Position numbers and translations under genes: made by a program. The notes under the pieces were generated by a model. That model made no database searches and was not told the DNA's origin. It saw nothing but the letters and a program-made list of their open reading frames with translations. A stretch of 64,000 nt of DNA, taken from assembly GCF_030269305.1 (NCBI RefSeq), contig NZ_BSTC01000011.1:1-64000 (forward strand). The letters run 5' to 3'. Source of the stretch: Kineosporia sp. NBRC 101731 (GTDB lineage Bacteria; Actinomycetota; Actinomycetes; Actinomycetales; Kineosporiaceae). The stretch's first letter is position 1. Every line of letters begins with the position of its first letter. This document shows positions 2,726 to 53,674 of this stretch, piece after piece.

Positions 2726-4682
2726 GGCACGAACCTCCGGTGCTTGAGGACGAGGTGGCACAGTGCGCGCTCGTGGACGCGGGCACATCGAGAGTCGGGT
2801 TGCGCCCGAAGAAGCCCACCGGCTTGAGGGTGAATCCGGTGTAGTCGACGGGCATGATCGGCCAGTCCTCCGGCCGCGGGGTGTGGGTCAGGCCGAAGGT
2901 GTGCCAGAGCACCAGGTCCTGGCCGTCCAGGTCGCGGTCGCCCGCCACGTAGGCGGGAAGGCCCGCGTCCCCGGGGTGCTGATTGACGAAATCGCCCGCC
3001 GGGTAACGCTGTGACCGGTCGTACTGCGTCACCCAGAGGTGGTTGGTGGCGAAGGCGGCGCGGTGGGCCACGGAGGATTCCGGGTCGGCCAGCAGGGTGG
3101 GCAGGCCCTCGGGGATCAGGGCGTAGGCGACGGGCCGGCCCAGTCGGTTGAGCTGGTCCGGGTTGCTGATGTGCCACACCCGGTTCTTCGCCGGGTCGGC
3201 GTCGCGGCGCGCTGCGGCCTCGCTCGCGAGCACACTGGACTGCGTGCGGAAGGCGTTGCCGCGCGGGTTGTCCGGTCCCATCGGCACGCGGACCACGTCG
3301 ATCTCCTCGATCCGGTTGTTCACGCCGTCGACCGCCATGTCGAGGCGGGCGCTGAACAGGTGCTGGTGGAACGGCGCGCCGAGGCCGGGCGCGATCTCGG
3401 TGGCATAGGGGTAGTCGCCGCCCGGGTGGGCGCTGGTGAACACGACACCCGTGGCCTTGGCCTCGAACTCGATGGTGCCGTCGAGGCAGAGGTACCAGTA
3501 GAAACCGTAGTCGTAGTTACCGATCGTGGTGAAGAAGCTGACCACCAGACGGCGCTGGCGGCGGGTGTGGTGCGAGCCGGACCACAGGTCGGAGTGCTTC
3601 CAGAGAATGCCGAAGTCTTCCTCGTGAATGCAGACGGCGTTGGGAAGGCGCTTGGCCCGGCCCTTCTCGTCAGCGATGACCGCGTCCAGGTAGGTGATCT
3701 CACCCAGGCAGTCGCAGCCCAGCTCGAGGGCGTTCGCGTACCGCCCGACCAGGTACTCGCCGGTGTCGAAGTAGTTCTGCCAGGAACGTACCGGCGCCGG
3801 GTCGGCATAGGGCACGACCATCTCGGCGATAGAGGCGCGGTGGATGACCGGTCGCACCCCCTCGCCCTCGTCGAAACCGATCTGGTGCAGGACGAGTCCC
3901 TCACGGGCGTCGAAACCTACTCGTAGTGACCATTTCTCCCACGTCAGCAGGTTGTCCTCGTCGACGCTGAGGCTGGACCCCTGAGGTTGCGTGATCAGCA
4001 GCGGCTTCTGGGTGATGCGCGGCGGACCGCTGACCGCGGGGTCGTCGAAGTTGCCGGACTCGGCCGGTACCGGCACGATTCCGTAGTCGATGACCTGGTC
4101 GACCACGCGGTTCACGGTGTCGACGTAGGCCACCAGGTTGTCGATCGGGTGGGCCCAGGCCGAGTCGGCCGGGTGTTCCTGGTAGAACGCGAGCCCGCGC
4201 AGCACCCGGCGGCCCGACTCCTGGGGGTACTCGTCGGCGTAGACCCCGGCCGACAGCGGTGCCACGCGGACTTTTTCGATGTCCAGTCCGCGGACCGCGA
4301 CGGCTGCCAGCCAGCGTTCGTCCTGGGTCAGCAACTGCTCGACGAGCTCGAACTCCTCGTCCAGCACCGGCAGCTGACCGGTGGCGGCGACGTCCAATAC
4401 GGTGTCGGAAACCACTGTGCCGCAGCTAATGTCGATCACGACGTCACGGGATACCTGGCTGTTCAGGTCGAGCAGCAGGGCCCGGAACCGGCGCGCGGAC
4501 GGGGTGCCGGGGGTCCAGGCGAGAACGTCGGCCTTGTCCGGTTCTTCGAGGCCGATGTAGACGAAGCGGGTGCTGTCGGTGAGCAGTCCGGCCGTGTCGG
4601 CCAGGGCGCGCACGGCGTCGATCTCGGTCTCGGTCACCGGGCTCAGTGGATGCCGGTCATGAGGTGAAGTTGTCTGAATCAC
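2718..4682 (-). CDS. Copper-containing primary amine oxidase (TPQ-dependent)
   Basis: A 654-residue enzyme that oxidises primary amines to aldehyde, ammonia and hydrogen peroxide using copper and topaquinone. The cofactor motif is GNYDYGF, with Tyr390 (numbered from the GTG at 4682) the residue converted to topaquinone. The catalytic-base motif YFDTGEY (Asp306) and the copper ligand pair HQH are present, and the length fits bacterial enzymes such as Arthrobacter phenylethylamine oxidase. The GTG at 4682 is chosen because GAAGGA lies about 8 nt upstream and upstream codons are low-complexity. First gene of an operon with a permease and a membrane protein, divergent from a TetR gene. The exact substrate cannot be read from sequence. 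Confidence 0.92.
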
Positions 4683-4792
4683 AGCAGTTTTCCTTCGGGA
4701 GCGGGCTCCGGCCCGGACGGGAGCGCACAAGGGGCACGGAGGAGGCGCAGGAGTGCGAGGTGGCGGTGGCGACCCGACGGCCTCGGCGGCTG

Positions 4793-32951: not shown

Positions 32952-33078
32952 TCCGCGGTAGGCACTCAACGGTAGGCACGCGGGTCTGCGTTCGAGCGCC
33001 CGAGGACGGCAAGATGTGCGACAACTGTCGAACCGATCTCGACGGGTCGGGAGTGTCCGCCCGCCGTATCGTCAACTC

Positions 33079-34389
33079 GTGCCACGTCATACCGTCGTAC
33101 CTGTGAACCGCACGGACGTACCCGGCCGGCAGCGGGAGGGGTCCGGGCGCCCGGACCTGGCGACGGCGTGCCGTCAGGCCTCGCGCCAGTCGCTGGCGGC
33201 GGTCGAGCAACTCGCCAGCGGTCTGAGCACCGCGACGGTGGCGTTCTTCGTCCTCTTCCTCGTGATCGTCACGGCCGTGCTGTGCCTCGTCGGCGTGGGG
33301 CTCCTCCTGGCCCCGGCCGTGTTGTACCTGGTACACGGTGCGGCCTCCCGCGAGCGCGACCGGCTCTCCCGCTGGGGTGATCCGGTGCTCGGTCCGCCGC
33401 GGCGCATCACGGATCTGCGGGCGGCGCTGGCTGATCCGACGACGCGACGTGAGCTGGTGTGGCTCGCCGTGCACGCCTGCGCCGGTTCGCTGCTCGGCCT
33501 GATCGGGGTGCTGCTGCCGTTGATGGCGGTGCGGGACGCCTCGTTCCCGCTGTGGTACCCGTTCCTGCCGCCGGGGTGGGGTAGCGCGTCGATCGGGTTG
33601 TGGACCGTGGACACCTGGCCCGGGGTGCTGGTGGTGTTCCTGATGGGTGTCGGCTGGACCGCGATCCTGCTCGGCCTCACCCCCGGAATGGCCCGGCTGC
33701 AGGGGCGTGCCGGCCGTCGGCTGCTGGCCCCGCCGCCGGGGACCGACCTGACCGGGCGCATCGCCGAGCTGACGTCGTCCCGTGCTAACGCCCTGGACGC
33801 GCACGCGACGGAGTTGCGGCGGATCGAGCGCTCGTTGCACGACGGTACGCAGAACCGGATGGTGGCGGTCACGATGCTGCTGGGTACGGCGCGGCGGGCG
33901 CTGGCCCGGGAGGACCGGGAGCTGGCCGACCGGATCATCGCGCAGGCCCAGGACGCCGCCGAGGACGCGCTGAAGGAGTTGCGCGGGGTGGTGCGCAGCA
34001 TCCTGCCGCCGGTGATCGAGGACCGGGGCCTGGCGGGGGCGTTGTCGGGTCTGGCCGCGAACTGCGGGGTGCCGACCGCGGTCGATGTCGAGGTGCCCGG
34101 CCGGTGTGCCGCATCGGTCGAGGCCACAGCGTATTTCGTGGTCGCGGAGGCGTTGACGAACGTGGCGCGGCACGCGGGGGCGGGTGCGGCCGCTGTTAGG
34201 CTGCGCCGCCGTGACGAGCGTCTCCTGGTCGAGATCGAGGACGACGGTCACGGCGGCGCGGACGAGGCCGGCGGTTCGGGTCTGGTCGGGCTGCGCCGCC
34301 GGGTCGAGGCGCACGACGGCGTCGTCACGATCGACAGTCCCGTGGGTGGGCCGACAGTGCTGAAGGTGGAGTTGCCGTGCGGATCGTGA
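33079..34389 (+). CDS. NarL-type sensor histidine kinase
   Basis: About 436 residues. Four or so transmembrane helices occupy residues 45-210 (VAFFVLFLVIVTAVLCLVGV; GSLLGLIGVLLPLMAV). The HisKA_3 motif is IERSLHDGTQNRMVAV with phospho-acceptor His254, and the HATPase domain has AEALTNVARHAGA and DDGHGGADEAGGSGLVGLRR. The GTG at 33079 lies 7 nt after a TATCGT -10-like box (33067-33072), suggesting a leaderless start; GTG at 33016 or 33103 is possible. The 3' end overlaps its response-regulator gene by 13 bp. The signal is unknown. Confidence 0.9.
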   Translation: MPRHTVVPVNRTDVPGRQREGSGRPDLATACRQASRQSLAAVEQLASGLSTATVAFFVLFLVIVTAVLCLVGVGLLLAPAVLYLVHGAASRERDRLSRWGDPVLGPPRRITDLRAALADPTTRRELVWLAVHACAGSLLGLIGVLLPLMAVRDASFPLWYPFLPPGWGSASIGLWTVDTWPGVLVVFLMGVGWTAILLGLTPGMARLQGRAGRRLLAPPPGTDLTGRIAELTSSRANALDAHATELRRIERSLHDGTQNRMVAVTMLLGTARRALAREDRELADRIIAQAQDAAEDALKELRGVVRSILPPVIEDRGLAGALSGLAANCGVPTAVDVEVPGRCAASVEATAYFVVAEALTNVARHAGAGAAAVRLRRRDERLLVEIEDDGHGGADEAGGSGLVGLRRRVEAHDGVVTIDSPVGGPTVLKVELPCGS

Positions 34390-35033
34390 TCGCCGAGGAC
34401 GACGCCCTGCTGCGGGAGGGGCTGGCCTCGCTGCTGCGGGCGGAGGGGCTTGACGTGGTGGCGACGGCGAGCGGGCCGGAGTTGTTCCTGGAGGCGGTGG
34501 ACGAGCAGACGCCGGATGTGGCGATCGTGGATGTCCGGATGCCGCCGACGCACACCGACGAGGGCATCGTGGCGGCGGTCGAGGCGCGCCGGCGGCATCC
34601 GGGGCTGGCGGTGCTGGTGCTGTCGGCTTACGTCGAGCGGTCTTTCGCCACGGACCTGTTGGCCGGTGGGGCCGACGGGCTGGGGTACCTGCTGAAGGAG
34701 CGGGTGGGGCGGGTCGAGGAATTCCTGGTGGCGCTGAACCGGGTGGCCGGAGGCGGGACGGCGATCGATCCGGAGGTGGTGGCGCAGCTGATGACGCGTC
34801 ATCGCCCGGACGCGGGGATGGAACGACTGAGCCCGCGGGAGCGGGACGTGCTGGCGCTGATGGCCGAGGGGCTCGGTAACACGGCGATCGCGGAGAAGCT
34901 GGTGGTGACGGAAGGTGCCGTGCACAAGCACATCCGCAGCATCTTCGCCAAGCTCGACCTGGCACCGGCCGACCACACCGACCGGCGCGTGGTCGCCGTC
35001 CTCAAATACCTCGACGAGAACCGGACGTCCTAA
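34377..35033 (+). CDS. NarL/LuxR-type response regulator
   Basis: A 218-residue regulator. The receiver domain has the acidic pair EDD at residues 7-9, the phosphorylated Asp52 in AIVDVRMPP, and Lys in YLLKERVG. The C-terminal GerE HTH (SPRERDVLALMAEGLGNTAI, VVTEGAVHKHIRSIFAKLDL) binds DNA as a dimer. GTG at 34377 lies inside the kinase gene, so they are translationally coupled and form one two-component pair. The following TPR gene starts 16 bp downstream and may be co-transcribed. Targets are unknown. Confidence 0.93.
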   Translation: MRIVIAEDDALLREGLASLLRAEGLDVVATASGPELFLEAVDEQTPDVAIVDVRMPPTHTDEGIVAAVEARRRHPGLAVLVLSAYVERSFATDLLAGGADGLGYLLKERVGRVEEFLVALNRVAGGGTAIDPEVVAQLMTRHRPDAGMERLSPRERDVLALMAEGLGNTAIAEKLVVTEGAVHKHIRSIFAKLDLAPADHTDRRVVAVLKYLDENRTS

Positions 35034-45387: not shown

Positions 45388-46200
45388 TCACCTGATGCTG
45401 AACTGGTCCAGGTCCGGTGCCGGGCCGACGGGGTTGTGGAACAGGAGGGTGTTGCTGCCCTTCTTCAGGTTGATGCGCAGCGTGGTGCCGGCCGGGGTCT
45501 CCCAGTCGCCCCGCCCGGGCAGGCCGGCCAGGTGCTGGTCGGCGCCGCCGTTCACGCTGACGTACAGGTCGCGGGGGCCGTCGCTCTCGTAGAGGATCGT
45601 CAGGGTGCGGGTGCCCGCGACCGCCACCCCGGTCACCGGCACGGTGAGACCGGCGGCCCCGGCCAGGTAGGCGATGCGGCTGCCCGCCGCACACGTGGGG
45701 CAGGCCACGGCCTGGACGTCGGTGCGGGTGTTACCGCCGTCGGTGGCGTTGATGGTCACCGGGGCGAACGTCGGGGACGGTGGCGTGCTGGTCGAGGTTG
45801 TCCGTTCGGGCGCGGCGGTTCTCGGGGCACCTGCGGTAGTGGTGGACGAAGCGGCCGGCTGGGTGGTGGACGCCGAGGGGGCCGGTGGTGTGCTCGCGGC
45901 GGCCCGGGACGTCCCGGCGGCCTTGGCGGCCTCGGCGGCCTCGGTCGCCCGGGTGGCCTCGGTCGTCTGCGTCATCGCCGCCGGGACGCTGGGCTCGTTC
46001 GTGGGGGCCTGTGCCCTGACGGCGGAGGGCGTGGCCGGGGGTGACCCGGCCTCGGCGAGCACCGGCGGCAGGAACGGCACGGCCAGCGCGGCCAGGCCTC
46101 CGGACAGACCGATGAGGCTGATCAGCCAGACCGGGCGCCCGGAGGGCCACAACGAGGTGGTGGGCGAGGCGACCAGGGAACGGCGGGAGGTGGCGCTCAT
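45388..46200 (-). CDS. Membrane-anchored CBM6/35-like protein (module copy 1)
   Basis: A 270-residue protein with one N-terminal hydrophobic helix (PVWLISLIGLSGGLAALAVP, about residues 23-43), a long Ala/Thr/Ser/Pro linker and a C-terminal beta-sandwich of about 120 residues. The sandwich shows the CBM6/35 pattern: CPTCAAGSRIAYL, TLTILYESDGPRDLYVSVNG, GDWETPAGTTLRINLKKGSN, TLLFHNPVGPAPDLDQFSI. It would sit outside the cell and bind sugar or another ligand. The ATG overlaps the stop of the upstream kinase-like gene (ATGA). The protein at 47430-48272 has the same architecture. Confidence 0.75.
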   Translation of the reverse strand: MSATSRRSLVASPTTSLWPSGRPVWLISLIGLSGGLAALAVPFLPPVLAEAGSPPATPSAVRAQAPTNEPSVPAAMTQTTEATRATEAAEAAKAAGTSRAAASTPPAPSASTTQPAASSTTTAGAPRTAAPERTTSTSTPPSPTFAPVTINATDGGNTRTDVQAVACPTCAAGSRIAYLAGAAGLTVPVTGVAVAGTRTLTILYESDGPRDLYVSVNGGADQHLAGLPGRGDWETPAGTTLRINLKKGSNTLLFHNPVGPAPDLDQFSIR

Positions 46201-47348
46201 GCCGGCAGCCGTACGCTGATCGTGGTGCCGGAGTACAGCTCGGACGTGACGGTCAGCGTCGCGCCGATCCCGGTCGCGTGGGCGGTCATGAGCCTCAGTC
46301 CCTCGTAGCGGCCGGTGTTCAGGACCTCGTCGTGGCTGGGGACGGTGAACCCCCGGCCGTTGTCCTGGATGGTCAGTTCCACGTGCTGTCCCTGTCCGCG
46401 CAGTTCCAGGCCGGCCCGGGTGGCGTGGGCGTGGCGCAGGACGTTCTCCAGGGCCTCGTCGAGGATCACCGCCAGGGCGTGACGCACGGGCGGGGAGGGC
46501 GCGAGCGGGGCGAGTTCGGTGCGCACCCGGATCGGCCGGCCGGTCGCCCATTCCCGCGACATCCGGCCGACCAGATCGGCGAAGTCCGTCCGGGGGTCGT
46601 CGAAGCGCAGCCCCCGCACCGGCGTGCGCGCCAGTTGCCGGGCGGTCGAGGCGTCGTCGACGAGGACCTGGGCGAGCCGGTCGGCGAGGACGGGCCGGCT
46701 CCCGGCCCGCACCACCGAGAGCGAGGCCGAGCGCAGCAGGCTCCGGACCCGATCGGCCGCCGGGGCGTCGTCCTGCTCGAGTTCCTCCTGGAGCCGGGCG
46801 AGCAGCCGGCCGGTGGCGCCGGAGGCCGCGGCACCAGCCAGGAACACCAGGGTGGGCACGACCAGCACGAAAGCCACCCCGGCCGGTGAGGTGGCGCTCT
46901 CGCCGAGCACGACCCCTTCGGTGGCGGCCGCGAGCAGGGCCTGCCCGACCCAGACCGGCATGGCCATCCGGCCCAGCAGGGCGCCGGCCAGGGCGGAGGT
47001 GCCGACCTGGTAGATCAGGCAGACCGGGTCGCCGATGCCCAGGAGCAGGACGCCCAGTCCGATCACGGTGTCGGCGGCGATCAGGGCGACGCGGGGCCGG
47101 CCGGGCCCCAGCCGGTCCAGCACCCGCTCCTGGACCAGCGTGATGGCCAGGACCAGGGCCAGGGGGAGCAGGAACCGGGCCCAGGTCTGCGGGCCGTGGA
47201 CGGCCAGCCCGGTCAGGGCCGCCATCAGGCAGCCGACCAGCCGCAGGACCAGGACCGCGCGGGCCAGGGTGAGGGCCGCCGCGGCCTGGGCACCGGGACG
47301 GCCGGTGCGGACGATCCCGGGCCGGGCGGGGAGGGTGCGCTGGACCAA
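46197..47348 (-). CDS. Membrane HATPase sensor lacking phospho-acceptor His (module copy 1)
   Basis: A 383-residue protein. About five transmembrane helices fill residues 22-175; the C-terminal HATPase domain has the N-box LDEALENVLRHAHA and the G1 box DNGRGFTVP. Where the sister protein reads VHDRATRTLRAVSL, this one reads AADRVRSLLRSASL, so the His of the HisKA_3-type motif is Ala198. The start is TTG at 47348, with GGAGG about 7 nt upstream; the sister gene also starts TTG-GTC-CAG. No response regulator lies nearby. It may modulate the sister kinase or act as a pure ATPase switch. Confidence 0.78.
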   Translation of the reverse strand: MVQRTLPARPGIVRTGRPGAQAAAALTLARAVLVLRLVGCLMAALTGLAVHGPQTWARFLLPLALVLAITLVQERVLDRLGPGRPRVALIAADTVIGLGVLLLGIGDPVCLIYQVGTSALAGALLGRMAMPVWVGQALLAAATEGVVLGESATSPAGVAFVLVVPTLVFLAGAAASGATGRLLARLQEELEQDDAPAADRVRSLLRSASLSVVRAGSRPVLADRLAQVLVDDASTARQLARTPVRGLRFDDPRTDFADLVGRMSREWATGRPIRVRTELAPLAPSPPVRHALAVILDEALENVLRHAHATRAGLELRGQGQHVELTIQDNGRGFTVPSHDEVLNTGRYEGLRLMTAHATGIGATLTVTSELYSGTTISVRLPA

Positions 47349-47370
47349 CGTGCTGCCTCCGGGGGAGGGG

Positions 47371-47406
47371 ATGCAGGACCGGTGCAGCCCTGCACCTGTC
47401 CTGCAT
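47371..47406. promoter_or_regulatory. 36-bp hairpin between the two sensor/CBM modules
   Basis: ATGCAGGACCGGTGCAG (47371-47387) and CTGCACCTGTCCTGCAT (47390-47406) pair over 17 bases with one mismatch and a 2-nt loop. It lies in the 81-bp gap between module copy 2 and the TTG start of module copy 1. It could be an operator, an attenuator or a terminator without a U-tract. Confidence 0.6.
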
Positions 47407-47429
47407 CACGTGCGCATCCCGGGCGGGGT

Positions 47430-48272
47430 TCAGCTCAGCGTGATCTGGTCCAGGTCAGGGGCCAGGCCGAGCGGGTTGTGGAACTTGATCTGGTTCTTTC
47501 CCGGCTTCAGCTCGACCGTGACGCTGGTCCAGCCCGGGGTCTCCCAGCCGCCGGTGCCCGCCACGGTGATCTTCTGCGACGAGCCGCCGTTGACGCTCAC
47601 GTACAGGTCGCGCTCTCGGAGGGTCTCGTACGCGATGGTCAGCTGCCGGCTGCCGGCTGTGTCCACCTCGACGGGCACGGTGAGCGTGGCGAGCAGCCCG
47701 ATGCCGATGACCCGGCTGCCCGAGGCGCAGGTCGGGCAGCCGGTGCTGCTGGCCAGGAACCGCTGGTTGCCCGGGTCGGACGCGGCGAGGGTGACCGGCT
47801 GGGTGGCCGGGTCGGTGGCGGGGTCGTCGATGAGGGGCGGTGTGGTCGCCGGGGTGCCGTCGGTCGCGGTCGGTGTGGGGACGCCGGTGGCGGCCGGTCC
47901 GGCGGTCGGCGTGGCGGTCGGGGTGGCCCGGGGGTCCTGCGACGGGGTCGCCCCTGACGTCTGCGACGGGGTCACCGCGGTGACGGTGGGCACGGAGGCC
48001 GGGTCGGTACCGGGGGAACCCGCGGAACCGTTCCCTCCGGACACCGTGCCCTCGATCCGGCCGCTGTCGTCGGTCACCGGGGCGGCCTGGGTGTGCGCCG
48101 GGGCGGGCTTGTCGGGCAGCACCGTGGGCAGGGCCGGTACGGCCACAGAGGTCAGCGCCACGGCGGCACCGAGCGTCGAGATCTGCCAGATCGGCGGCCC
48201 GGCCGGCCACAGCCACGAGGTGGGCAGCGCGGTGAAGGTCCGGCTGACGGGGGCCTTGAGCTTCGTTCTCAT
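47430..48272 (-). CDS. Membrane-anchored CBM6/35-like protein (module copy 2)
   Basis: A 280-residue paralogue of the protein at 45388. It has one N-terminal helix (PIWQISTLGAAVALTSVAVP), a Thr/Pro/Asp-rich linker (TPTATPTAGPAATGVPTPTA) and a C-terminal beta-sandwich: CPTCASGSRVIGIGLLATLT, LTIAYETLRERDLYVSVNGG, WETPGWTSVTVELKPGKNQI, KFHNPLGLAPDLDQITL. The domains are clearly homologous while the linkers differ completely, as expected for old duplicates under selection on the ends. The ATG overlaps the stop of the upstream kinase (ATGA). The likely role is an extracytoplasmic ligand-binding partner of that kinase. Confidence 0.75.
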   Translation of the reverse strand: MRTKLKAPVSRTFTALPTSWLWPAGPPIWQISTLGAAVALTSVAVPALPTVLPDKPAPAHTQAAPVTDDSGRIEGTVSGGNGSAGSPGTDPASVPTVTAVTPSQTSGATPSQDPRATPTATPTAGPAATGVPTPTATDGTPATTPPLIDDPATDPATQPVTLAASDPGNQRFLASSTGCPTCASGSRVIGIGLLATLTVPVEVDTAGSRQLTIAYETLRERDLYVSVNGGSSQKITVAGTGGWETPGWTSVTVELKPGKNQIKFHNPLGLAPDLDQITLS

Positions 48273-49444
48273 AGCGACATCCGGACCTTGATCTCGGTGC
48301 CGGAGTACGGCGCGGTGGTGATGGTCAGATCGGCGCCCAGGTAGGAGGAGCGCGAGATCATCCGGCAGATTCCCGCGTACTCCCCGCCCCGCAGCTGGGC
48401 GGGGTCGGTCGGGACGGTGAACCCCTGGCCGTTGTCCTTGACGATGAGCGTCACGACCTGCTTCCGTTCGGTGATCTCCACCTGGGCGCGGCTGGAGCGG
48501 GCGTGATCGGCGACATTGGCCAGCGCGTCGTCGACGATCAGGGCGAGCTGGTGGCGCACCGGGATCCGTAGCCAGACCGGCCGCAGGTCGGTGCGCAGGT
48601 TCAGGTGGGCCGTGTCGTCCCACTCCTGGCACAGCAGGGCCAGGGCGTCGGCGAACTCCTTGCCCGGGTAGTCGAAACGTACCCCGCCGACCGGCCGGCG
48701 GGCCTGTTCCAGGGCGATCATCGTGTCCTGGGTGAGGCGGCCGGCCAGGGCGTCGGCGAGAGACGCGCGGGCGCCGAGCGCGGCCAGGGAGACCGCGCGC
48801 AGGGTGCGGGTGGCGCGGTCGTGCACGACGTGGGCGGGCTGTGCCGGGTCCAGGTCGTGGTTGAGCCGGTCCCGGACGAGCTGGCTCAGGGTGACCGCCG
48901 TGGCCCCCGCGGCCACGATCAGGGCGGGAGCGGTGACGAGCAGCACCGTGGTGGGCAGCGGGGCGACCTTGTCGGCCAGCACCACCCAGCAGGTGACGCC
49001 GGCCTGGACGGCCTGACCGATCCACAGCGGGGTGCCGTTCAGCCCGAGCAGTGCCCCGGCCAGGGCCGCGGCCCCGACCTGGAAGATCACGTAGACCGGG
49101 TCGGCCGTCCACAGCAGGAAGATCACGAGTGCGACCGCGCTGTCGCCGAGAACCAGGAGCACCCGCGGGGGTCCGGACGAGACCCGCGGCAGGGCGCGCA
49201 GTTCGATGATCGTGACGACGGCGATGATCACGAACGGGACGGCGTAACGCATCAGGGAATCGGTGTCGGCGCCGCTGAGAAGCACCGAGACAGCTGCATA
49301 GACGACAGCGGTGGACATCCGGGCGATCAGGATCGCCCGGCCCAGCGCGAGCACGGAGGCGGCCTGCACCCCCGGCTGTCCGGGCGGGATCAGCCCCGGG
49401 GCCGCACCGTGCACAACGGTGTCCCCGACGACGGTCTGGACCAA
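48269..49444 (-). CDS. Membrane histidine kinase with HisKA_3-like motif (module copy 2)
   Basis: A 391-residue protein, paralogue of the one at 46197. About five helices cover residues 28-190. A motif AHVVHDRATRTLRAVSLAAL places His208 where HisKA_3 kinases have their phospho-acceptor, followed by the N-box VDDALANVADHARS and G1 box KDNGQGFTVP. TTG at 49444 follows GGAGGG closely and matches the sister start (LVQ). The frame is open further upstream, but that segment is not coding-like. There is no response regulator in the window next to it. It could signal to an orphan regulator. Confidence 0.8.
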   Translation of the reverse strand: MVQTVVGDTVVHGAAPGLIPPGQPGVQAASVLALGRAILIARMSTAVVYAAVSVLLSGADTDSLMRYAVPFVIIAVVTIIELRALPRVSSGPPRVLLVLGDSAVALVIFLLWTADPVYVIFQVGAAALAGALLGLNGTPLWIGQAVQAGVTCWVVLADKVAPLPTTVLLVTAPALIVAAGATAVTLSQLVRDRLNHDLDPAQPAHVVHDRATRTLRAVSLAALGARASLADALAGRLTQDTMIALEQARRPVGGVRFDYPGKEFADALALLCQEWDDTAHLNLRTDLRPVWLRIPVRHQLALIVDDALANVADHARSSRAQVEITERKQVVTLIVKDNGQGFTVPTDPAQLRGGEYAGICRMISRSSYLGADLTITTAPYSGTEIKVRMSL

Positions 49445-49485: not shown

Positions 49486-49525
49486 CATGTCCGCCGTGAC
49501 ATGCCGGAGTGTAATAGTTGCAACT
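49486..49525. promoter_or_regulatory. Inverted repeats upstream of the sensor/CBM operon
   Basis: CATGTC-N6-GACATG (49486-49503) and the perfect palindrome AGTTGCAACT (49516-49525) lie within 85 bp of the TTG start at 49444, in an AT-richer patch between marR and the first kinase. On the minus strand TTGCAA followed by TATTAC could contribute to a promoter. The roles are inferred. Confidence 0.4.
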
Positions 49526-49621: not shown

Positions 49622-50140
49622 TCAGGACTCGGTGTGGATATCGGCCCGGGCCGCTCCGGTGGCCGCTGACGCGTCTTCGAGAAACTGTGCGATCACAGCC
49701 AGTTCGCCGGCGCTCCGGGAGGCCAGGACCGGTGCCATCCGGGCTCCGACGCGTCCGAACATCGACGCTCCCACGGTGTGGGCGTGATCGGTGGCGACCA
49801 CCACGATCGAGCGCCGGTCGTGCGGATGTGGGCGCCGCGTCACGTGGCCCAGTCGTTCCAGCCGGTCGAGCATGGCCGAGGTCGCCGGGGCGCTCAGTTG
49901 CAGCGCCTCGCTCAGCCGCCGCGGGGTGACGGGCTCGTCACCGGCCGACATCACCACGCGCAGGCCGTTGAGGTCGGTGCGGTGCAGGGCCTCGTCGCGC
50001 CCGGTCGCGGCGAGGTACATCTCCGACTCGGTCGCGAACGCCGCCATCGCCCGCACGGCCCGCACCGCCTCCGGCCTCCGGTCGCCGTGGGCGGGGGAAC
50101 GGGGGGTGGCCTCGGCGTGTGTCGAATTGTGGTCCTGCAC
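49622..50140 (-). CDS. MarR-family transcriptional regulator
   Basis: A 172-residue MarR protein: winged HTH in EPVTPRRLSEALQLSAPATS, then AMLDRLERLGHVTRRPHPHDRR, with the typical wing Asp-Arg-Arg. It is divergent from the MMPL transporter gene, with two perfect-length 16-bp direct repeats covering the shared promoter and the transporter start. The natural reading is a repressor of the MMPL exporter and itself, relieved by a small aromatic or lipophilic ligand. Confidence 0.9.
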   Translation of the reverse strand: MQDHNSTHAEATPRSPAHGDRRPEAVRAVRAMAAFATESEMYLAATGRDEALHRTDLNGLRVVMSAGDEPVTPRRLSEALQLSAPATSAMLDRLERLGHVTRRPHPHDRRSIVVVATDHAHTVGASMFGRVGARMAPVLASRSAGELAVIAQFLEDASAATGAARADIHTES

Positions 50141-50156
50141 GTCATCATTCTACTCT

Positions 50157-50188
50157 TTCGACTGTGGAACTATTCGACGGTGGAACTA
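50157..50188. promoter_or_regulatory. Tandem 16-bp direct repeats at the marR/MMPL promoter
   Basis: TTCGACTGTGGAACTA (50157-50172) and TTCGACGGTGGAACTA (50173-50188) are adjacent, differing at one base. They overlap the likely GTG start of the MMPL gene at 50164 and lie 17 bp from the marR ATG. A related TGTCGAATTGTGG occurs just upstream (50119-50131). Candidate MarR operator; MarR sites are more often inverted repeats, so the direct arrangement is unusual. Confidence 0.5.
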
Positions 50189-52299
50189 AGCGCCGATTGC
50201 CGCATCTGGTGGGCCCGCGACTGAGCTGGCTGGTCGTACTCGTCGCCGTGGTGTTCTCCGGTCTCGCCCTCGCCCTGCCGATCACCGCGCAGGAGTCGGA
50301 CGCCGGGGTGGCCAACGTGCCCACCAGCGCCGAGTCCCGGCAGGCCGAGCAGGTGCGCGACGACCTCGGGGGCAGCGAGATCGTCCCCGCGATCGTGGTG
50401 ATCGATCGCACCGGCCAGGGGGGCCCGAAGCTCACCGACGACGACCGCGCTACGGTCGAGACCCTGGTCAAGAGTCTCCAGCGCTACGCCGTCGAGGGTT
50501 CGTCGGTGTTCCAGCAGTACTCCGACGACGGGGCGGCCGCGATCGTCGGGGTGCCGCTGTCGGCCCGGGCCTCCAACGACGAACTGGTCGCGACGGTCGG
50601 CGACATGCGCACCTACCTGGGCCAGGAGCTGACCGGCGGCCTGCGCGCCCAGGTGACCGGCGGCCCGGCCTTCACCGTCGACCTGGCCGGAGTGTTCGAC
50701 GGCGCCGACACCCGGCTGCTGATGGTCACCGCCCTGGTCGTCGCCGTGCTCCTGCTCCTGACCTACCGCAGCCCCTGGCTGTGGCTGGTGCCCCTGATCG
50801 TGGTCGGGGTCGCCGATCAGGTGGCCGTCTCCGTCGTGGCCATCGGCACGAAGGTGCTGCCGTTCACCACCGACGGCGCCTCGGTCGGCATCACCTCGGT
50901 GCTGGTGTTCGGCGCCGGCACGAACTACGCCCTGCTGCTCATCGCCCGTTACCGCGAGGAGCTGCGGCGTCACGAGAACCGCTACGAGGCCATGCGGATC
51001 GCCGTCGACCGGGCCGCCCCGGCGATCCTGGCCAGCTCCGGCACGGTCGTACTCGCGCTGCTGTGCCTGGGCTTCGCGCAGAGCCCTTCCAGCCGCAACA
51101 TCGGCCTGGGCGGCGCGCTCGGCATCGTCACCGCCGTCCTGTACGCCCTGCTCGTGCTGCCCGCCGCCATGACCGTGCCCGGCCGGCGACTGTTCTGGCC
51201 GTTCGTGCCGCGAGCCGGGCAGGAGGTGGCCGAGCGCTCCGGGTTCTGGTGGCGCGTGGCCGAGGGCGTCACCCGGCGTCCCGTGCTGGTGGGTTCCGCG
51301 AGCCTGGTCCTGCTCGCCGTCCTGATGATCCCCCTGGTCGGCCTGCGCACCGGCCTCTCACAGACCGAGCAGTTCCGGGCCACCCCGGAGTCGGTCACCG
51401 GCCAGGAGACCCTGGGCGAGCACTTCCCCGCCGGATCGTCCCAGCCCACGATCGTGGTGGTCGCCCGGGACGCCGCCGAGAAGGCGCAGACCGCGCTCGC
51501 GGACCTCGACGGGGTGCGCTCGGCCCGGCCCGAGCAGAGCACCTCCGCCACCGCCGACCGCACCGTCATCGACGTGGTGCTCGACGCGGCCCCGGCCTCC
51601 GACGCCGCGTTCGGCACGATCGAGCGGATCCGCACCACCGTGGACGGGATCGATCCGCAGGCACTGGTGGGTGGCTCCGACGCCCAGGCCCTGGACGCCG
51701 ACCGGATCGCCGACCGCGACCGCCGCATCGTCATCCCGCTGGTGCTGCTCGTCGTGCTGGCCGTGCTGCTGGTCCTGCTGCGCTCCCTGGTCGCGGCGGT
51801 GCTGCTGGTGCTGACCGTGGTGGCCACCTACGCCGCCGCGATGGGCGCCGCCTGGTTCGCGTTCGACCGCTGGTTCGGCTTCCCCGCGCTCGACCTGATC
51901 GTGCCCCTCATGGCCTTCCTGTTCCTGGTGGCCCTGGGCGTCGACTACAACATCTTCCTCACCACCAGGGCCCGGGAGGAAGCCGCGAAATCGCCGGAAG
52001 ACGTGGCCCGTGGCCCGATCTCGCTAGCCCTGGCGGTGACCGGAGGGGTGATCACCAGCGCCGGCATCCTGCTCGCGGCGGTGTTCGCGGTGCTCGGGGT
52101 GCTGCCCCTGATCACCCTCACCCAGATCGGCGTGATCGTCGGGTTCGGCGTGCTGCTCGACACCCTGCTGGTGCGCAGCGTGCTGGTCCCGGCCCTGGTC
52201 ACCCTGCTCGGGCGCTGGTTCTGGTGGCCGGGCGAACTGTCCCGCCGGCCCGCCGAGCAGGAAGAACCGGAGAAGACCCCGGTGCAGCCCATGCGGTGA
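50164..52299 (+). CDS. MMPL/RND-family membrane transporter
   Basis: A 711-residue MMPL protein with the duplicated layout of one helix, a large extracytoplasmic loop, then a block of five helices, twice. Signatures are VFGAGTNYALLLIARYREEL in the first half and LMAFLFLVALGVDYNIFLTT, RAREE in the second; the Asp-Tyr/Asn-Tyr pairs are the proton-relay positions. Such proteins export lipids, siderophores or antibiotics in actinomycetes. Start taken as GTG at 50164; a start slightly downstream is possible. Controlled by the divergent MarR, most likely. Cargo unknown. Confidence 0.93.
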   Translation: MELFDGGTKRRLPHLVGPRLSWLVVLVAVVFSGLALALPITAQESDAGVANVPTSAESRQAEQVRDDLGGSEIVPAIVVIDRTGQGGPKLTDDDRATVETLVKSLQRYAVEGSSVFQQYSDDGAAAIVGVPLSARASNDELVATVGDMRTYLGQELTGGLRAQVTGGPAFTVDLAGVFDGADTRLLMVTALVVAVLLLLTYRSPWLWLVPLIVVGVADQVAVSVVAIGTKVLPFTTDGASVGITSVLVFGAGTNYALLLIARYREELRRHENRYEAMRIAVDRAAPAILASSGTVVLALLCLGFAQSPSSRNIGLGGALGIVTAVLYALLVLPAAMTVPGRRLFWPFVPRAGQEVAERSGFWWRVAEGVTRRPVLVGSASLVLLAVLMIPLVGLRTGLSQTEQFRATPESVTGQETLGEHFPAGSSQPTIVVVARDAAEKAQTALADLDGVRSARPEQSTSATADRTVIDVVLDAAPASDAAFGTIERIRTTVDGIDPQALVGGSDAQALDADRIADRDRRIVIPLVLLVVLAVLLVLLRSLVAAVLLVLTVVATYAAAMGAAWFAFDRWFGFPALDLIVPLMAFLFLVALGVDYNIFLTTRAREEAAKSPEDVARGPISLALAVTGGVITSAGILLAAVFAVLGVLPLITLTQIGVIVGFGVLLDTLLVRSVLVPALVTLLGRWFWWPGELSRRPAEQEEPEKTPVQPMR

Positions 52300-53369: not shown

Positions 53370-53674
53370 GACAGCACGCCGAACCGCTCGCTGACACCCA
53401 GTTCCTCGCGGGCCCGGCGCACCCGCTGCGCGGCCACCCCCGAGGTGGTGGCGGTCAGGCGGGCGATCTGGCTGGCGGAGTATCCCTGGGCGCTCAGGGC
53501 CAGGGCGTGGCGCGCGGGGGTGGTCAGGCGCAGCACGGTCGCGGCTGCCACGCCGGAGTGCAATCCACTGAACCAGCCGCTGCGCCCGGCAACCGTCGGC
53601 GGTGTGCTCTCGCCAGGGAAATCCATTGCCAAACGGCGGATCTCGGCAATGATGCAGGCGACGTCGTCGTGCAT
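53366..53674 (-). CDS. Small HTH protein (sigma-70 region 4/LuxR-like), coupled to the next gene
   Basis: A 102-residue protein. Residues 52-90 read LTTPARHALALSAQGYSASQ, IARLTATTSGVAAQRVRRAR, a sigma-region-4/LuxR-type HTH; the N-terminal half is short and without known motif. ATG at 53674 has GGGAGG about 10 nt upstream. Its stop overlaps the start of a second, also receiver-less HTH gene. Two DNA-binding proteins made in equal amounts suggest a heteromeric regulator. Confidence 0.72.
   Translation of the reverse strand: MHDDVACIIAEIRRLAMDFPGESTPPTVAGRSGWFSGLHSGVAAATVLRLTTPARHALALSAQGYSASQIARLTATTSGVAAQRVRRAREELGVSERFGVLS

Follow-up and report, generated by a model that had tools for sequence, protein, structure and literature searches.

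The first 64,000 nucleotides of contig NZ_BSTC01000011.1 of the actinobacterium Kineosporia sp. NBRC 101731 (hereafter the window) contain two consecutive gene pairs, each encoding a membrane protein related to histidine kinases (HKs) and a single-span partner protein that ends in a domain resembling carbohydrate-binding modules (CBMs) of family 35. Here we report that the two pairs belong to a response regulator (RR)-less branch of an HK-RR-partner module which is present in complete form elsewhere in the same genome, and that the HKs of this branch have lost conserved residues of phosphotransfer while retaining the core of the ATP site. The explanation that we favor, tentatively and at a little less than an even chance, is that the window encodes two paralogous pseudo-histidine-kinase co-receptor units, in which the CBM35-like partner would serve as sensor and which would act on the canonical pair HK3-RR3. 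The system is conserved within one genus.

The four genes lie end to end on the minus strand between positions 49444 and 45388, in the order HK2, partner 2, HK1 and partner 1 (Table 1). This is the layout put forward in an initial annotation made from the sequence alone, which described two consecutive modules of a TTG-started HK translationally coupled to its partner through ATGA; both HK-partner junctions are indeed 4-nucleotide ATGA overlaps, both HKs begin with TTG-GTC-CAG after GGAGG, and the segments CPTCA(A/S)GSR and FD(D/Y)P that it listed as common features are present in the window proteins. HK1 and HK2 are 39% identical over 378 aligned positions (E 2e-74) and the two partners 38% identical (E 3e-48), by which measure the pairs are paralogous beyond chance. 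Pfam recognizes a HATPase_c domain in both window HKs and nothing significant in the window partners. A scan for sigma-70 promoters and intrinsic terminators found none of either.

A search of the window genome (G000; 8.26 Mb in 88 contigs) revealed one more partner gene with a clear score and two more full-length HK relatives, a fourth partner match reaching only E 0.024. On contig C10 (locus L013) the gene order is HK3, the NarL/LuxR-type regulator RR3 and partner 3; HK3 carries HisKA_3 (50.8 bits) and HATPase_c domains, and the RR3 orthologue of a second Kineosporia genome, G009, contains Response_reg and GerE domains. The other relative, HK4, also with HisKA_3, forms a canonical pair with RR4 on contig C4 (L014 3088-7644), without such a partner and flanked on both sides by DUF1996-type genes; HK4-RR4 with these flanking genes recurs in all six Kineosporia genomes. 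Judged by sequence, the window modules are RR-less paralogues of the HK3-RR3-partner module.

Partner genes occur in 7 of 13 genomes of the family, namely in all six Kineosporia and in G012, one of three genomes of another genus, and all seven possess the HK3-RR3-partner module. HK2-partner 2 is present in five of the six Kineosporia (G000, G005 or K. babensis, G006, G008 or K. rhizophila, and G009) and HK1-partner 1 in three (G000, G007 or K. mesophila, and G009), while G005 and G006 each hold one additional RR-less pair at another site. This amounts to ten RR-less pairs among 17 partner genes. Every partner gene (17/17) stands directly behind an HK or an HK-RR, in keeping with the dedicated two-gene unit initially postulated, and the 4-nucleotide HK/partner overlap is kept in all RR-less pairs (ATGA in nine, GTGA in one). 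All six genomes with RR-less modules also carry HK3-RR3. Tandem repetition, the other feature expected from the window, was found in two Kineosporia genomes (G000 and G009) and is missing from the remaining four. In K. mesophila, however, a decayed 3'-remnant of partner 2 precedes HK1 (L064, about 4563-4706) and no HK2 match was obtained; the remnant suggests that the tandem was once present there, and the single module of this species thus looks like the product of a loss.

The ten RR-less HKs were compared with 13 canonical ones (seven HK3 and six HK4) in an alignment that is gappy ahead of the phosphoacceptor and was anchored on the L-R-x-x-S-L segment behind that column, which the RR-less HKs have kept (L in 10/10, R and S each in 9/10). 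The phosphoacceptor column holds His in 13/13 canonical HKs and A, H, L, Y, Y, H, H, Q, V and A in the RR-less ones, that is, His in three of ten; among the window proteins, HK1 has Ala198 there and HK2 has His208, which is not preceded by the usual box. Arg at position -3 is found in 13/13 canonical versus 0/10 RR-less HKs. At E 1, Pfam detected HisKA_3 in none of the ten RR-less HKs and in 7 of 17 HKs of a set holding seven canonical ones, and HATPase_c in all 17, with both window HKs above the Pfam cut-off and HK2 of G009 just below it (26.3 against 26.4 bits). The N-box Asn and the G1 motif DNG-x-GF persist in 10/10 RR-less HKs, with the N-box Glu changed to Asp in five. The G2 box, GHxGxxGM in the canonical paralogues, has its His replaced by Tyr and its final Gly lost in all ten, which share the clade-specific lid pattern G-x-Y-x-G-[IL]-x-x-M. 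Because the phosphoacceptor region and the G2 glycines have been lost, pseudo-histidine kinase is, on these alignments, the better name for the RR-less HKs.

We accordingly discarded an active, self-contained two-component system as first choice, HisKA_3 being undetected and the G2 box changed in 10/10. A weaker variant holds that the RR-less HKs are still active kinases which use a relocated or unusual phosphoacceptor and address an orphan RR encoded elsewhere. The His-Asp pair kept in HK2 of both G000 and G006 speaks for it, as does the HATPase_c domain recognizable in every HK at E 1, but as seven of the ten have Ala, Leu, Tyr, Gln or Val in place of the phosphoacceptor, and all ten lack Arg at -3 and the last G2 Gly, we consider it improbable.

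A structural model of HK2 (mean predicted local distance difference test score, pLDDT, 80.1) contains two helices (204-219 and 227-248) like those of a dimerization and histidine phosphotransfer (DHp) domain and a catalytic and ATP-binding (CA) fold, HK2 itself retaining the His. Its best Foldseek matches were the ATP-binding domain of VraS, EL346 and DesK. Ahead of the DHp-like part the model shows five long helices separated by short gaps only, which points to an HK without a sensor domain of its own. The initial annotation had counted five membrane helices, and hydropathy profiles do place five spans over threshold in HK1 and HK2. The count is nonetheless soft: the paralogue HK4 gives six, and one 42-residue helix of the HK2 model (116-157) could equal two spans. 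Six spans would place both termini on one side of the membrane, whereas five would not.

All partners consist of one span, a linker of 65-118 residues and a CBM35-like sandwich. Linker bounds are our own cut, within which P/T/S/A/G/E/D/K make up 76-95% of residues; the P/T/S/A-rich linkers show little conservation, in agreement with the dissimilarity noticed initially. The partner 2 model is confident over about residues 161-280 and of low confidence ahead of these. Its top Foldseek match is the CBM35 structure 2wz8 (E 8.2e-12, TMt 0.82), and the leading matches are CBM35 modules and enzymes carrying them, so that the CBM6/35-like domain of the initial annotation is borne out by structure prediction. 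At the sequence level the gathering scores of Pfam CBM_35 and CBM_6 were not reached: the window partners gave no match and partner 3 scored 18.7 against 28.9 with CBM_6. A CxxC motif is invariant across all 17 partners. An LW motif ahead of the span, found in 10/10 RR-less versus 0/7 RR-linked partners, is a change that accompanies the loss of the RR. As predicted from the fold, the ligand would be a carbohydrate.

Since the loops between the HK helices are short, it is plausible from the models that the partner supplies the sensor. To this extent the original proposal of a cell-surface sensing system stands, while its premise of a free-standing kinase system gives way to an RR-less branch of an HK-RR-partner module. 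It has also to be asked whether sugar binding by the partner might be purely structural, serving attachment to the wall or to exopolysaccharide, with the HK-like protein controlling only export or assembly. A single span, a long linker and a CBM35-like domain would suit such a role, and we identified no signaling output for the window modules; the HK3-RR3-partner operon, though, places the partner with a signaling pair, and we think this explanation very improbable.

In a tree rooted on HK4 the ten RR-less HKs form a single clade (support 100/100), and the groups of the partner tree are compatible with it. Ratios of non-synonymous to synonymous substitution rates (dN/dS, NG86) are 0.32 for HK1 of G000/G007 (CA domain 0.16) and 0.29 for HK2 of G000/G009 (CA domain 0.23), as compared with 0.07 and 0.16 for HK3 and 0.13 for HK4. 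In the partners, values are 0.14 and 0.17 for the N-terminus and span, 0.66 and 0.88 for the linkers, and 0.38 and 0.45 for the CBM domains. On these figures the window genes are constrained, though less than their canonical paralogues. The figures bear on a further alternative, in which the window modules would be copies of the HK3 module that no longer function and are decaying. Their dN/dS exceeds that of HK3 by factors of about 4.6 and 1.8 when identical genome pairs are compared (0.32 versus 0.07 and 0.29 versus 0.16) and reaches 0.64 for HK1 of G000/G009, and K. mesophila is without HK2 and most of partner 2. Yet all ten HK frames are open, whole-gene dN/dS stayed below 1 in every comparison made, with CA-domain values of 0.16-0.48, and both the 4-nucleotide overlap (10/10) and the upstream elements are conserved. 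We regard decay as quite improbable.

The intergenic regions contain several conserved elements. Between HK3 and a divergent DUF1996 gene lies a 16-bp dyad-like box, TAGGCCCAAAGTCCTA, in 6/6 Kineosporia (five exact, one with two mismatches); in G006 no DUF1996 gene was recognized on that side in stretch L062, and the box there is simply upstream of HK3. In the whole G000 genome this sequence has two exact copies, the second preceding another DUF1996 gene (Table 1). At up to three mismatches the genome yields 7 sites for the box and 41 for the reversed control, and because the control is the commoner our argument rests on the exact sites and not on enrichment. Four of the G000 sites have three mismatches, and one on contig C13 with two mismatches was dismissed, since it seems to fall within an unrelated gene or where that gene begins. 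At a second, putatively orthologous DUF1996 gene in each of the other five genomes, the box has 0 (G007), 1 (G006), 1 (G009), 3 (G005) and 4 (G008) mismatches. In shuffled stretches there were 11.8 matches per pass at up to four mismatches and 0.0 at up to three, so that the box at this gene is supported in five of six genomes. In G012 a variant with four mismatches and perfect 6-nucleotide arms, TAGAGCCAAAGCTCTA, stands beside its HK and DUF1996 gene. The box is absent from L184 and L186, which hold two further DUF1996 genes, and from the HK4 stretch L014; weak versions with four mismatches, a chance-level match, are found ahead of the DUF1996 gene at the HK4 locus of G009 (L052 6660) and of G005 (L059 4613). 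The box also resembles DosR-type sites. RR3 may bind it, and the genes that bear it would then be a candidate regulon of the canonical module.

Different elements accompany the window HKs. The core TTACACTCC of the element upstream of HK2 recurs in 5/5 HK2 orthologues, with a three-mismatch match also at window positions 53546-53564. The inverted repeat upstream of HK1 has a similar counterpart in K. mesophila and a degenerate one in G009, and may function as an operator or form an RNA hairpin.

Table 1. Positions of the modules and associated elements. Positions are those of the window unless a locus is given.
Feature	Position	Strand	Remarks
HK2	48269..49444	-	391-residue membrane pseudo-histidine kinase; TTG start; His208-Asp kept without preceding box; N-box Asn and G1 kept
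Partner 2	47430..48272	-	280 residues; single span at about residues 34-52; P/T/S/A-rich linker; CBM35-like domain
Partner 2, CBM35-like domain	47433..47798	-	residues 159-280; mean pLDDT of 10-residue blocks over 161-280, 87-98
HK1	46197..47348	-	383-residue membrane pseudo-histidine kinase; TTG start; Ala198 at phosphoacceptor position
Partner 1	45388..46200	-	270 residues; single span at about residues 26-44; linker; CBM35-like domain
Partner 1, CBM35-like domain	45391..45762	-	residues 147-270; putative, assigned by alignment to partner 2
Inverted repeat	47370..47407		upstream of HK1; 18-nucleotide arms, 94% complementary, 2 nucleotides between
Element ATTACACTCCGGCATGTCA	49497..49515	-	upstream of HK2
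TAGGCCCAAAGTCCTA, copy 1	L013 7253-7268 = C10:139252-139267		upstream of HK3-RR3-partner operon and DUF1996 gene
TAGGCCCAAAGTCCTA, copy 2	L183 1188-1203 = C7:168187-168202		about 70 bp before another DUF1996 gene

As the initial annotation stated, no RR gene adjoins the modules. The upstream neighbor of HK2 is a co-directional MarR-type gene, followed by a divergent gene for an MMPL-family transporter (the two together at 49622-52299); proteins starting like this transporter occupy the site in G006, G007 and G008. An RR gene further away in the window (34377-35033) follows its own HK (33016-34389), which has a His-Asp motif, and the pair is apparently unrelated to the modules. We also weighed a LuxR-type gene pair near 53 kb as a possible output but set it aside, because like genes occurred, within limited flanks, only in the G006 and G007 stretches.

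These surroundings matter to another alternative, which we judge unlikely though one of the main rivals: that the RR-less HKs are ATP-controlled scaffolds acting, independently of HK3-RR3, on an unrelated protein, in an anti-sigma-like fashion or by directly contacting a regulator or a protein of the wall. A scaffold of this kind would fit with the retention of the N-box Asn and of G1 in 10/10 and with the clade-specific lid pattern, and the HK3 box was not found near the RR-less HKs; given the MarR-type gene upstream of HK2, with like genes at the site in other genomes, a local regulator is conceivable. On the other hand, the retained L-R-x-x-S-L segment favors an HK- or RR-type contact, HK3-RR3 accompanies the RR-less modules in each of the six genomes, and the pairs of G005 and G006 at other sites have no MarR-type neighbor in the stretch seen.

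Beyond the family, matches to the CBM35-like domain were obtained in 4 of 198 genomes of the order and 24 of 394 of the class, two overlapping sets (G000, among others, is in both) of which G103 contributes to both counts; no more than 13 and 6 first-look candidates per genome, respectively, were scored, so that weak relatives could escape. The matches, at 31 loci, sit in open frames of 441-1331 residues. All of the 13 loci inspected encode longer proteins in which further sequence accompanies the domain, and of four proteins submitted to Pfam two carried GH97, one GH27 (Melibiase_2) and one only weak DUF4832/DUF4874 matches. A scan of named genomes yielded 15 loci, seven from Kineosporia and eight from other bacteria. 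In these eight and in L076-L078 the domain lies in protein frames of 348-1131 residues, and none of the 11 stretches, whose flank lengths differ, has an HK-like neighbor; one of them, L126, has an RR-like frame near by. Conversely, HK relatives at E 1e-25 occur in 4 of the 394 class genomes besides G000 (L143-L146). In these and in L147, from the family, the canonical phosphoacceptor motif is intact in all five HKs, and a CBM35 partner was recognized at none of the five loci. The genes beside the HKs of L144-L147 are ones that we take to resemble Tad/Flp pilus genes. At L143 (5126-8866; G448, of the same class) the genes for a canonical HK and a NarL-type RR and a DUF1996 gene are immediately preceded by the gene for a 262-residue one-span protein that has a P/T-rich linker and no Pfam match; this may be the same arrangement built around another sensor domain.

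The co-receptor reading would run as follows. The single-span partner would expose its CBM35-like domain to the exterior at the end of a long, flexible linker, and the partner's conserved segment in and next to the membrane would contact the polytopic HK-like protein, which has no sensor of its own. Having kept the dimerization helices and part of the ATP site but lost the classical phosphoacceptor motif, the G2 glycines and the cognate RR, this protein would most likely form mixed dimers with HK3, or else bind RR3, and glycan occupancy of each partner would tune the single HK3-RR3 pathway. The HK-partner contact, the mixed dimers, the carbohydrate ligand, the sign of the effect and the output are what we infer. 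A bolder version, possible but rather unlikely as a whole, sees a multi-input surface receptor in Kineosporia: an HK-RR-lectin operon would have been duplicated and its copies turned into signaling-dead co-receptors with their own CBM35-like lectins, all feeding an HK3-RR3 output that controls DUF1996 surface proteins.

Among the literature matches listed, none describes this arrangement of an HK and a CBM35-like partner, but parts of it have parallels. CBM35-type domains of secreted enzymes (GH27, GH97) are of the same type, several with a C-x-x-C stretch and with profile E-values down to 2.7e-24; there the domain is attached to an enzyme, whereas in Kineosporia it is membrane-anchored beside an HK. 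The RsgI anti-sigma factors of Clostridium thermocellum carry the CBM within the same protein. They are membrane proteins proposed, in the excerpt cited, to sense extracellular polysaccharide via CBMs, with a sigma factor, unlike here, as the output (PMC4711584). The closest functional analogy may be RetS of Pseudomonas aeruginosa, a histidine-kinase co-receptor whose periplasmic domain has a CBM fold and which, according to the passages cited, blocks autophosphorylation of the canonical kinase GacS by forming a heterodimer (PMC7695008, PMC4866733); at least one study found that RetS can do without its own phosphorelay residues. In RetS, however, the CBM-like domain is within the kinase and not in a separate anchored protein, and the Kineosporia kinases are of HisKA_3 type by descent and would form mixed dimers only by our proposal. 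DivL of Caulobacter, as described in the cited extract, is devoid of kinase activity and binds a regulator in its phosphorylated form (PMC4211667). As proposed for Kineosporia, a kinase core with a replaced phosphoacceptor (Tyr in DivL and in 2/10 Kineosporia HKs) is reused as a regulatory contact. The remaining HK boxes are reportedly intact in DivL and its sensors are PAS domains, in contrast to the changed G2 box and separate CBM35-like sensor of Kineosporia; the DivL structure (4q20) was among many HK structures in the HK2 fold search, and we claim no close relation. ChrS and HrrS of Corynebacterium glutamicum, from paralogous actinobacterial two-component systems, are stated in the cited text to heterodimerize, the inactive kinase still shaping the output (PMC9491836); that case is a laboratory-evolved mutant without a CBM partner. 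HK2 and HK3 match the model of MacS from Streptomyces (NCBIfam NF047322) over most of its length, and HK3 has a NarL-type RR, as in MacRS. Identity with MacS was rejected at 30.7 (HK2), 69.6 (HK3) and 51.8 bits (HK4) against a cut-off of 300, with no match for HK1 at E 1, and the portion of the MacRS article cited mentions no CBM partner (PMC10345050).

Several points weigh against the co-receptor reading. With its His208-Asp, HK2 may still be able to accept phosphate. Both trees carry long-branch warnings and the partner 1 group is weakly supported (53/34), the dN/dS of 0.64 for HK1 of G000/G009 (CA domain 0.48) amounts to weak constraint, and module 2 has been lost in K. mesophila. No box of the TAGGCCCAAAGTCCTA type was found in the window at up to four mismatches, and thus no sign of shared transcription. 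Precedents are also mixed: LadS, with a sensor domain similar to that of RetS, formed no heterodimer with GacS in the data cited (PMC4866733), and with truncated ChrS no significant heterodimerization was seen in the experiment cited (PMC9491836).

What sets these modules apart from a simply duplicated kinase pair is the rewriting of the signaling core in genomes that have kept the active paralogue. A single actinobacterial genus here offers ten degenerate kinases, and that paralogue, present in each of six genomes, is a built-in control for following the change from kinase to co-receptor; in the sources cited above, the natural precedent of a pseudo-histidine kinase is DivL of the alphaproteobacteria, and the actinobacterial one is a laboratory mutant. 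The modules suggest a role for membrane-anchored CBM35-like domains that can be put to the test, and the 16-bp box is a starting point for finding out when bacteria produce DUF1996 proteins, a family on which the literature, among the matches listed, is mostly fungal. If the co-receptor reading is true, Kineosporia would possess a family of co-receptors made of two proteins, a lectin and a pseudokinase, whose translation is coupled and whose genes are in places repeated in tandem.

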